DNA of 64,000 bases. Source: Prochlorococcus sp. AG-347-K10 (GTDB lineage Bacteria; Cyanobacteriota; Cyanobacteriia; PCC-6307; Cyanobiaceae). Positions 6,424-64,000 of the stretch are shown in pieces. The notes beneath the pieces were generated by a model. The model was not told the origin of the DNA. It worked only from the letters and a program-made list of their open reading frames with translations, and searched no databases. The stretch is taken from positions 20,751-84,750 of the forward strand of contig QCCB01000004.1 of NCBI GenBank assembly GCA_003278955.1. Reading direction: 5' to 3'. How positions within the stretch are numbered: the first letter of the stretch is position 1; each line of letters begins with the position of its first letter. Made by a program: the position numbers and the translations under genes.

Positions 6424-7782
6424 ATGCCAAACTTTATAAAAGATAATATTCAAAAAACAAGTAATAATTCTTCTCGTAGCATCAAAAAATTATTAAAACA
6501 AAGATCTTTAGTCGTTGCATTATCGCTCTTATTAACAGGTCTAGGGGCTTCAATTACAAGCATATCTTTTAAAACTGGAATCTATTTTATTAATAATTGG
6601 AGATTAGCATTATTAGACCAATTCCCATCTATTGCGGTCTTACCTATTTTTGGAGCTCTAGGAGGAGCTATTGCGGGATATTTGATCAAAAATATAGCAC
6701 CTGCTGCAAAAGGTTCAGGTGTAAGTCAAATCATGGGTTTCTTAAGACATAAAAAAGTTCCAATGAATTTAAAAGTAGGATTAGTAAAGCTCATATCGGG
6801 AATTATTGCAATTGGTAGTGGATTCCCTTTGGGTCCAGAAGGTCCATCAGTTCAAATGGGAGGATCCGTAGCTTGGCAAATGGCCAAGTGGCTCAAAGCT
6901 CCTACAGCTTTCAGAAGAGTAATAGTAGCCGCAGGTGGTGGTGCTGGAATAGCTGCAGTATTTAGCGCTCCATTAGGAGGGTTTATCTATGCAATAGAGG
7001 AGTTATTAAACTCTGCTAGACCAGTAATTTTATTATTAGTAGTAATTACAACTTTTATTGCAGATTCATCTGCTGATATTATTCAAGCCTTGGGTTTAGA
7101 TCCTAAAGCAGGAGGCTTTGATTTTAACCTCGGATTTTTGATTCAAAAAGAATATGACCCATCAGTTTTTTTCTTACCTGTAGATTTGATTTACTTAGTT
7201 TTACTAGGAATAATTATTGGAATATTTGCAGAATTGTACAGCAGATATGTTTTGTTAATGCAAAATCTTGGGAAAAAGTGGTATAAAAATAAATTTGTTT
7301 TAAAAATGAGTATCTGTGGGCTCATTTTAGGAAGTATCTACTCTTTTTTACCCAGTACATTTCATAATTTAGATGAATTACAGAAAATAATAGCTGAACA
7401 AAATACAAGTATTGGAATTGCTTTATTAGCAGTTTTAGTACTATTTATCACGACAGGTTTAGCAGCAGCATCCGGAGCTCCTGGAGGATTATTCTATCCA
7501 ATGCTTACTTTAGGAGGGTCAATCGGACTAATAATGGGGAGCTGGGTAGAAATTGCTACAGGACATGCACCAAGTACATATATTTTTGCGGGAATGGGAG
7601 CTTTCGTAGCAGGATGTTCGCGAACGCCAATAACAGCAATGTTTTTAGCTTTTGCTTTAACAAAAAATTTATTAATAATGAAACCTGTGTTAATCAGCTG
7701 CATTGCCAGTTTCTTGATAGCAAGAGCTTTTAATGAAGAATCAATTTATGAAAGACAAATACAAATAGAATTAGAAGACTAA
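6424..7782 (+). CDS. ClC-family chloride channel/antiporter
   Basis: 452 aa polytopic; GSGVSQI, GFPLGPEGPSVQMGG and GAPGGLFYPMLTLGG selectivity-filter motifs. Confidence 0.94.
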   Translation: MPNFIKDNIQKTSNNSSRSIKKLLKQRSLVVALSLLLTGLGASITSISFKTGIYFINNWRLALLDQFPSIAVLPIFGALGGAIAGYLIKNIAPAAKGSGVSQIMGFLRHKKVPMNLKVGLVKLISGIIAIGSGFPLGPEGPSVQMGGSVAWQMAKWLKAPTAFRRVIVAAGGGAGIAAVFSAPLGGFIYAIEELLNSARPVILLLVVITTFIADSSADIIQALGLDPKAGGFDFNLGFLIQKEYDPSVFFLPVDLIYLVLLGIIIGIFAELYSRYVLLMQNLGKKWYKNKFVLKMSICGLILGSIYSFLPSTFHNLDELQKIIAEQNTSIGIALLAVLVLFITTGLAAASGAPGGLFYPMLTLGGSIGLIMGSWVEIATGHAPSTYIFAGMGAFVAGCSRTPITAMFLAFALTKNLLIMKPVLISCIASFLIARAFNEESIYERQIQIELED

Positions 7783-60897: not shown

Positions 60898-62484
60898 ATG
60901 AGTGAAATAATTTTAAAAAAAGAACGAGATCCTTCTATATTAATTTTGGATTTTGGATCTCAATATTCTGAATTGATTGCAAGAAGAATTAGAGAAACTA
61001 ATGTTTTTTCTCTTGTAGTAAGTAATTACATTTCAATTAAGGAAATTAAAAATATTAACCCTAAAGGGATTATTTTAAGTGGGGGCCCAAATTCTGTATA
61101 TTCACAAAACGCGCCAAAGTGTGATGGAAAAATTTTTAATTTAGGAATTCCTATTCTTGGCATATGCTATGGAATGCAATTAATGGTCAAAGAACTTGGC
61201 GGATCTGTTATTTCGGCAAACAAAAGAGCTGAATATGGTAGAGCACCGATAAATATAGACCAAGAATCAGACCTCCTTTCTGATGTAGAAGATAAATCTA
61301 TTATGTGGATGAGTCATGGCGATTCTATAAATAGTTTGCCTGATGGATTTAATAAAATTGCTCATACCGAGAACACACTTCATGCAGCAATATCAAATGA
61401 TGTAAAGAAATTATTTGGCGTACAATTTCATCCAGAAGTTGTTCATTCAGAGTGTGGGATGACGGTAATTAAAAATTTCGTTTATAAAATTTCTTGTTGT
61501 GCGGCTGATTGGACAACCGAAACTTATATAGAGGAAACTATACCCAGGATAAGAGAGCAAGTTGGTAATAAAAAAGTTTTGCTTGCCTTATCTGGCGGAG
61601 TTGATTCCTCAACTCTTGCTTTTCTTCTCAATAAAGCTATTGGAAATCAGCTTACATGCATGTTTATAGACCAAGGTTTTATGAGAAAAGGTGAACCGGA
61701 ATTTTTAATGAATTTTTTTGATAAGAAATTTCACATAAAAGTTGAATACATTAATGCAAGGGAGAGGTTTATTGCCAAATTAAAAGGTATTACTGATCCA
61801 GAACAAAAAAGAAAAATTATAGGTGAAGAATTTATTAGAGTATTTGAGGAAGAAAGCAATAGATTGGGACCTTTTCAGTATTTAGCCCAAGGTACTCTTT
61901 ATCCTGATGTTATTGAAAGTGCTGGGACTAATATTGACCCTAAAACAGGAGAAAGAATAGCTGTAAAAATAAAGAGTCATCATAATGTGGGCGGATTGCC
62001 AAAAGATTTGCAATTTAAATTAGTTGAGCCATTAAGAAAACTTTTTAAGGATGAAGTCCGTAAAGTTGGAGCTGCTTTAGGTTTGCCGGATGAAATTATA
62101 AAAAGGCATCCATTCCCAGGACCAGGATTAGCAATAAGAATTTTGGGAGAGGTGAATAATGAAAAACTTGATTGTTTAAGAGATGCAGACTGGATAGTGA
62201 GAGATGAAATTAAAAAAGCATGTCTTTACAATGAAATTTGGCAAGCTTTTGCAGTATTGTTACCCGTAAAAACAGTAGGAGTTATGGGTGATAAAAGGAC
62301 TTATGCATGGCCAATAGTTTTACGTTGTGTATCTAGTGAAGATGGTATGACAGCCGATTGGTCAAAAATCCCTTTTCAGATTTTAGAAAGGATTGCAAAT
62401 AGAATCGTCAACGAAGTAAGTTCAGTTAATAGAGTTGTTTATGATATTACAAGCAAACCTCCTGGAACTATTGAGTGGGAATGA
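60898..62484 (+). CDS. guaA: GMP synthase (glutamine-hydrolyzing)
   Basis: 528 aa; [50 protein letters not shown]-terminal KPPGTIEWE. Confidence 0.98.
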
Positions 62485-62522
62485 AAAGTAGGGTATAAAC
62501 CCAGTTATAGTCTAGAAAAATT

Positions 62523-62607
62523 GGTTTCACATGAGTTTCACATGAGAATTTTGAAACCTGATGGCAAGGGATTTTAATATGGAGGTTTCACATAGGTTTC
62601 ACATGGA
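62523..62607. repeat. cluster of four TTTCACAT repeats in two pairs
   Basis: TTTCACAT at 62525-62532, 62536-62543, 62586-62593, 62597-62604; each pair offset by 11 bp; plus inverted TGAAACCT (62552-62559) / AGGTTTCA (62583-62590). Confidence 0.9.
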
Positions 62608-62720
62608 GGTAAAAATCTATTTCTATAGAGAAATCGTATAAAGTCTGTCTTCTTTATAGTTGTTATTTTAATTAAAAGTTAATTTTAATATCAAGAAACG
62701 AACTTATTTTTGTTGAGGAT

Positions 62721-64000
62721 TTATAAATGCAAATTTTGATATTTTTCAGTTTGAGTAAGTATTTCTATAGCAGGCTGCAGCATATCTTTGTAATTCTTCC
62801 ACCCACCAATTGATTTAGAATTAATTGGGGAACGAATTTGAACACTACTTGATGTCAAGACAGAGCGTTTATTTAAATGAGGCGATAGATATGAATCTTC
62901 CCACTTCCAATCTAACCAAGAGATTAAAGATTTAATTTCCTTATCAGAATTAGAAACTAATGAATCATAATTTAAGTCATAAATTTTTGATCGAAATCTA
63001 TTCTTATAATTACTCATTATTTCTTCTTGATCTAGATAAATTTTTGTGCAATCTCTTAAGGAAGAAGAAAATTCATTATCTCTGGTAAAATTTGCTCTAT
63101 AAATTGAAAGAATATTATCTAATGGATTTCTAAAGCAGTGAATAATTTTCGCATTCTTTATTTCTCTTGATATGATACCTGCATATTGATAGTTGAATAA
63201 CCATTTGTTAGTAGTGATATAAAAATTTTCAGTATATTTGCTAATTTTGTTCCAATAAATATCAGTAAGCGTTAATTTCTCATCAATGTTTTTTTGCTGA
63301 AGGAATGATTCTTCTAGTATATTAACTTCACCTAAATCAAAAACTTTGCTATTCATACTAAGGATTGATTCAACTAATGTGGATCCACTTCTTGGCATTC
63401 CTACAATAAAAATACTTTCTGGATATTTTGTGATTTTTGTCTGATTAATGCCTTCTTTATCAGTTTCAAAAAGTAATAATTTAGATTTATTGATTAAGTA
63501 ATCAGATTGAGACTTTTTAAAATCAAGTTTTAATTCATTTGCTAATTGAAGGTATCTAGAACTTTCTTGGTATTTTTTTTCATTATGAAGAATATTTGCT
63601 CTCGCAAAGTAAATGTTAACTTGATCTTTTTTGCTTTTGTTATCTAAAAAATTTTCTGAAAAAAGTGTTTCTTTCCATTTTTGATTTTTATTAGGGTATT
63701 TAAGAGTTGATATAATATAATATGCAATCCCTAAATTAGGATTAAGTTCTAGTGATTTACGAGTAGATAATTCTGCTTCCTTTAATTTTCCTAAATTTCT
63801 TAATATTCCTCCCAGATTCGAATAAGCAATAGCGTTGTTAGGATTAAGTTCTAGTGCTTTACGAGTAAATAATTCTGCTTCCTTTAATTTTCCTAAATCT
63901 AATAATATCCCCCCCAGATTCGAATGAGCGTTAGTGATATTAGGATTAAGTTCTAGTGCTTTACGAGTAGATAATTCTGCTTCCTTTAATTTTCCTAAAT
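62721..64000 (-). CDS. TPR-repeat sulfotransferase (5' end beyond window)
   Basis: The 62721..63398 ORF continues in frame upstream with no stop to base 64000 (YPESIFIVGMPRSGSTLVESIL...; IIHCFRNPLDNILSIYRANF PAPS-binding-like motifs); TPR units NNAIAYSNLGGILRNLGKLKEAELSTRKSLELNPN. Confidence 0.88.
   Translation of the reverse strand, partial: LGKLKEAELSTRKALELNPNITNAHSNLGGILLDLGKLKEAELFTRKALELNPNNAIAYSNLGGILRNLGKLKEAELSTRKSLELNPNLGIAYYIISTLKYPNKNQKWKETLFSENFLDNKSKKDQVNIYFARANILHNEKKYQESSRYLQLANELKLDFKKSQSDYLINKSKLLLFETDKEGINQTKITKYPESIFIVGMPRSGSTLVESILSMNSKVFDLGEVNILEESFLQQKNIDEKLTLTDIYWNKISKYTENFYITTNKWLFNYQYAGIISREIKNAKIIHCFRNPLDNILSIYRANFTRDNEFSSSLRDCTKIYLDQEEIMSNYKNRFRSKIYDLNYDSLVSNSDKEIKSLISWLDWKWEDSYLSPHLNKRSVLTSSSVQIRSPINSKSIGGWKNYKDMLQPAIEILTQTEKYQNLHL
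63738..64000 (-). repeat. 102-bp (34-aa) near-identical tandem TPR repeats
   Basis: AGGATTAAGTTCTAGTG... recurs at 63738, 63840 and 63942 with exact 102-bp period and few substitutions. Confidence 0.93.

Follow-up and report, generated by a model that had tools for sequence, protein, structure and literature searches.

What are the two pairs of short direct repeats that follow guaA, the GMP synthase gene, in the window, the 64,000-nucleotide stretch of Prochlorococcus DNA analyzed here, which reaches the end of contig C4 (84750)? As the first-pass annotation had described, the pairs (GTTTCACATGAGTTTCACAT and GTTTCACATAGGTTTCACAT) are exact, lie 61 bp apart and are built of exact TTTCACATNNNTTTCACAT units with a period of 11 bp within each pair (Table 1). 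They are the only exact copies in the 1.34-Mb genome (34 contigs, 82% complete), in which the next best match has two mismatches. Among the explanations offered were a regulator site, an attachment or recombination site at the edge of an accessory segment, and a gene remnant. Comparison with other genomes shows a core containing the last guaA codons, element-specific repeats at a fixed spacing, and matching repeats at the right ends of sister elements. Based on these sequence comparisons, we propose, with a probability of roughly 0.9, that an integrative element has inserted in the guaA 3' end, that the block is its attL, and that the repeats are putative arm-type sites within this attL; the attachment site appears to have been the right option among those offered.

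Table 1. Features at and downstream of the guaA 3' end (coordinates are positions in the window)
Feature	Position	Strand	Remarks
guaA (GMP synthase)	60898..62484	+	528-aa ORF; last codons are the putative integration target
Recombination core ACTATTGAGTGGGAATGA	62467..62484	+	Overlaps guaA 3' end and stop; other genomes have copies at element boundaries
AGTTATAG	62503..62510	+	Between core and arm pair 1; conserved in TTTC/TTAC classes (30 left att blocks aligned)
Arm pair 1 (two TTTCACAT units, 11-bp period)	62524..62543	+	57 bp from core start
Arm pair 2 (two TTTCACAT units)	62585..62604	+	61 bp after pair 1
Palindrome ATTTCTATAGAGAAAT	62619..62634	.	3' of arms; consensus TCTCTATAGAGAAAT; kept in all arm types aligned
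Leader segment	62628..62710	+	blastn matches of query 188-271 in other loci; direct comparison with L059
TPR-sulfotransferase, C-terminal part (cargo)	62721..63998	-	Sulfotransfer_3 and TPR matches; cut by contig end

Recurrence and geometry of the guaA-associated block

When the flank was searched against 197 genomes, the block of ~200 bp behind guaA recurred in many genomes of the genus, at about 69-95% identity. Several genomes contain further copies a few kb away, each restarting with the last ~20 bases of guaA. Searching the window genome and its relatives for the repeats and comparing guaA flanks thus revealed a block common to many genomes and tied to islands, not a lone local expansion without islands. 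This recurrence makes a local repeat expansion scarcely credible, and the same holds for a small-gene remnant: the 26-codon frame from 62561 on which the latter idea was based exists in the window sequence, but its start ATG is not conserved.

We fetched 40 regions, nearly all of them guaA flanks, a sample biased toward filled sites. In empty sites (L073-L076), the conserved neighbor gene c4 is located within about 50-80 bp of the guaA stop; in filled sites, guaA and c4 are separated by variable genes spanning up to several kb, which repeated cores divide into segments. Next to guaA, chromosomal sequence extends up to GAGTGGGA from the left and element sequence continues to its right; where an array ends, the empty-site flank comes after arm repeats and a core (L079 and L081 compared with L075). 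This comparison of empty and filled sites at GAGTGGGA bears the signature of site-specific integration and places the predicted crossover within GAGTGGGA, the chromosomal side of which swaps between the putative attL and attR. Two hallmarks of known guaA islands were found here: insertion at the guaA 3' end with restoration of that end, as judged from empty versus filled sites, and a GAGTGGGA core repeated at both ends, which in the window genome reads GAGTGAGA at the far end.

The arrangement consists of the core at the guaA 3' end, two arm pairs, cargo, a right arm pair, and the next core, and this geometry is fixed across picocyanobacteria. With p as the first base of core ACTATTGAGTGGGAATRA, arm pair 1 is found at p+57, a spacing shared by most left att sites, and arm pair 2 at p+118, with sister blocks having the same spacing and units that vary jointly with pair 1; the start of the right arm pair precedes the next core by 91 bp or, in a second class, by 83 bp. 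guaA precedes the array in every oriented locus that contains guaA, and on both strands of the oriented loci such arm pairs were found only within the guaA-c4 interval. A pattern scan of 266 Prochlorococcus genomes identified 96 left and 82 right sites, the reversed patterns giving 0 and 1; the right pattern allowed nine spacings, and the lengths found were 105 (53 sites), 97 (28), and 104 (1). A contig with a located guaA carries 153 of the 178 sites, all 153 on the guaA strand and -11 to 10,929 bp from its 3' end; the remaining sites are on separate contigs or in genomes where guaA was not located. At least one site is present in 105 of the 266 genomes; because only GTTT arms fit the patterns, this number is a minimum.

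OmpR/PhoB-type regulators recognize direct repeats spaced by about one helical turn, and 11-bp direct repeats between two genes resemble such sites. A response regulator site of this type that controls guaA or a neighbor gene is nevertheless very improbable, given that the genome offers no further copy with fewer than two mismatches and that the sites are found only in the guaA array, keep a fixed distance to the guaA core at both element ends, and vary in concert element by element, so that the unit sequence differs even between neighboring elements of one genome.

The four direct-repeat units and the palindrome described by the first-pass annotation are conserved on comparison. The palindrome could serve the first gene as an operator or be a site for a directionality factor; its consensus, TCTCTATAGAGAAAT, is often followed by TTTCTCTA. 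The inverted copy, TGAAACCT, is also present as described but appears incidental: conservation is limited to AACCT and the copy does not vary with the arm sequence, and we rejected it as an extra arm site because of this lack of conservation. The best matches in an Rfam search all had E > 1, far below gathering scores, and we therefore assign the block to no known RNA family. Matches to a 21-bp pattern in one Flammeovirgaceae and one Clostridia genome were taken as chance; viral contigs contained no exact repeat pair, and the one viral contig with a core-spacing match lacks the repeat sequence and was likewise attributed to chance. A cargo-less core-arm-core unit of 139 bp (L066 4836-4975) resembles a minimal element, and overlapping left and right matches in G023, G007, and G522 suggest more cargo-less units.

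Arm sequences, cargo, and probable cassette movement

The arm 8-mer is specific to each element and usually identical at its two ends. The arm types are TTTCACAT/C, TTTCACGT, TTTCCCTC, TTTCCCGT, TTACACGT, TTTTACGT, TTTGTCAC, and TTTGTTGC, to which integrase-bearing elements add RTCACACA, TCTCACC, and CTACCCC. In the alignment of 30 left att blocks, the arm units within one block generally vary jointly on a conserved backbone. Of the 22 elements that have both ends, 19 have left and right units that differ at no more than one of eight bases; shuffling the right ends 10,000 times gave a mean agreement of 6.5 and a maximum of 13, a result that is not a strict p-value because elements of one type are related. 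Neighboring elements in one array are often of different type (L053, L056, and L059), and the ends are mismatched in L107 and L086.

Cargo, which we surveyed by example, includes restriction-modification proteins, MreB, EPSP-synthase-family (MurA-like) proteins, sulfotransferase, asparagine synthase, exo/endonuclease-phosphatase-family proteins, and acyltransferase. The restriction-modification cassette is the second unit of the array in L056 (3612-5979), and in L087 (2505-4873) it comes first and is fused to guaA. From core to core the two copies are 97.4% identical over 2.37 kb; the guaA-containing flanks of the same two genomes are 80.7% identical. To the left of the left core, ungapped identity is at most 34%; over the final 100 bp ahead of the right core identity is 92-98%, and it falls to 50% in the 50 bp from the core on and then to at most 34%. 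The low identity between -400 and -150 of the right core reflects a length difference, not divergence. The simplest reading of this pattern is a recent transfer of the core-to-core unit. A 4.66-kb cassette encoding asparagine synthase, carbamoyltransferase, and an M20 peptidase is also 97.4% identical between L058 (273-4932) and L064 (3232-7891), and genes for MreB, a MurA-like protein, and a sulfotransferase form a set inside the guaA array in L062 (2208-7626) and L079 (2955-9394).

Integrases and proposed mechanism

Most elements lack an integrase, and a minority encode a tyrosine integrase. In L059, a 454-aa PF00589 protein is encoded directly after attL; close relatives of this integrase are present in 5 of the 266 genomes of the genus, in all five directly downstream of guaA. 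An alignment search detected strong relatives in other genera of the family, with guaA just upstream in eight of nine fetched loci; most of these loci have the same core-arm layout, with a shifted spacing in L199. Elsewhere in the genus we found weak matches (about 23%), viral contigs gave only integrases of about 23% identity, and phage records gave no integrase match. In Pfam the integrases match PF00589 only, and they matched phage integrase families too; an AF2 model (pLDDT 67.5, pTM 0.47) matches tyrosine recombinases, with the Tn1549 integrase first. L059, L107, L108, and L109 have further genes alongside the integrase, among them one for a possible replication protein (PF23343, a weak match below the curated cut-off), which is possibly of the HUH type. 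A DUF5906 helicase-like protein is encoded in L107 and L108, and a serine recombinase was identified from Pfam matches in L059 and L108 and from its sequence in L107 and L109. The integrase-bearing elements may replicate as circles.

Right arms match left arms in integrase elements L059, L108, L109, L198, L201, L202, L203, and L204; the arms are mismatched in L107, and L197 is partly decayed. Integrase distance is correlated with arm distance (Mantel r 0.56-0.63, p < 0.01) in a test in which the L110 arm units were set by hand and L199 was excluded because its frame is interrupted. The idea that the N-terminal integrase domain alone tracks arm sequence is not supported, since all three domains track it about equally. 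In G078, a decayed N-terminal integrase fragment with a stop lies directly behind attL (C8:15454-15588, L101), as in an element that is losing its integrase.

We propose that a tyrosine integrase with an arm-binding domain would bind the TTTCACAT repeats and recombine GAGTGGGA cores, so that an incoming circle would insert at guaA, restore the guaA end, and push earlier elements downstream. Given that most elements, including that of the window as far as it can be seen, are without an integrase, they would need one supplied by another element; an element with the same arm sequence could provide it in trans. A bolder extension, for which we see the odds as about even, is that picocyanobacteria have in the guaA 3' end a platform resembling that of integrons but lacking a resident integrase, at which the arm sequence acts as an address code for a visiting integrase. 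If so, stacked address types would let defense, cell-surface, and nutrient cassettes come and go independently at one site.

The att-delimited segments might instead be an immobile fossil array, reshuffled only by homologous recombination between shared blocks. The lack of an integrase in most genomes, the decayed fragment in G078, the mismatched ends of L086, and the hybrid or decayed end in the window genome are all in keeping with such an array. We consider it unlikely, however, because intact integrases with matching arms exist, because the arm match is retained at both ends, and because a near-identical cassette is present in different slots of divergent genomes with identity that stops at the cores. 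The attL reading is supported by insertion at GAGTGGGA, the fixed geometry, left/right arm agreement, the restriction-modification cassette, the integrase behind guaA, and the use of the same GAGTGGGA site by known guaA islands (PMC9376610, PMC7775301). Against it we count the lack of an integrase in the window genome, the differing arm type and mutated core on contig C29, the mismatched ends of L107 and L086, and the fact that excision and integration are inferred.

Relation to known systems and the window element

The guaA 3' end is a known integration site that is cut at GAGTGGGA (PMC9376610; PMC7775301, citing Song et al. 2012). GIsul2 and ICERspD18B share with the elements described here insertion at the guaA 3' end and the GAGTGGGA cut, and they have a tyrosine integrase, as do a minority of the elements here (PMC9376610, PMC7775301), and a sub-unit of GIsul2 between inner att sites is also excisable by the island's integrase (PMC9376610). 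Unlike these islands, the elements here are mostly 0.7-8 kb, integrase-less, and stacked, with element-specific arm repeats; their integrases match PF00589 only, and the P4-type integrase with AlpA was not seen, AlpA being absent among the proteins identified. CIMEs are integrase-less units that keep their att sites and undergo accretion (PMC5704250), and the arrays here likewise retain attL and attR, have lost integration genes, and are arranged in tandem. In contrast to CIMEs, no conjugation genes were seen in the examples, the cargo is one to several genes, and pairing by arm sequence is suggested; for mobilization by a related element, as with CIMEs, the restriction-modification cassette of L056 and L087 would be indirect support. 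The portions consulted of a description of Dehalococcoides ssrA arrays (PMC3146451) report tandem islands behind one essential gene that are bounded by 3'-end repeats, only some with a recombinase, as here, but with a serine recombinase, a tmRNA gene as target, and no arm repeats mentioned in those portions. Prochlorococcus tycheposons, as described in PMC10872708, are likewise integrative elements that carry cargo and have tyrosine recombinases, in the same genus, but are located at tRNA genes, whereas the sites here are at guaA. Integrons are similar in outline, in that small cassettes at one platform would depend on a recombinase supplied separately, but the sites here consist of core and arms rather than folded attC sites and the integrases found matched PF00589 and phage integrase families.

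Our literature search turned up no description of a guaA array of this kind in either Prochlorococcus or marine Synechococcus, and earlier mention elsewhere is possible. The guaA insertion site and CIME-like accretion are known; we judge the stacked integrase-less guaA cassettes with element-specific arms to be a new version of these known kinds. Prochlorococcus is a very abundant marine phototroph whose accessory-gene exchange is an active question, with tRNA-targeted tycheposons as the best-known route. The guaA arrays, whose sites occur in 105 or more of the 266 genomes, would constitute a second, site-specific route. Because arm sequences vary naturally while the core stays constant, and some elements with such arms encode integrases, recognition by an integrase of its own element is directly testable.

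The window genome itself has an intact attL; no close integrase of the L059 kind was found in this genome, which is 82% complete. Its gene c4 is on contig C29 (G000, L206), where the minus strand at 6763-6872 contains a right arm of the TTTGTCAC type, GTTTGTCACCGGTTTGGCAC, with the spacing of 83 bp, followed by the core mutated to GAGTGAGA and then by a stretch like the left end of an L110-type element. By our reading, the start of C29 falls within the N-terminal part of a TPR protein that is encoded on the strand of the window gene. If the C4 and C29 fragments are one gene, the element combines a TTTCACAT left end with a TTTGTCAC right end and is a hybrid; we conclude that it is probably either decayed or hybrid. 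The hybrid reading fits with the leader segment, which is common to the other arm class: there it also lies 3' of the arms and precedes cargo genes, and in the window the gene start after the leader has been lost.
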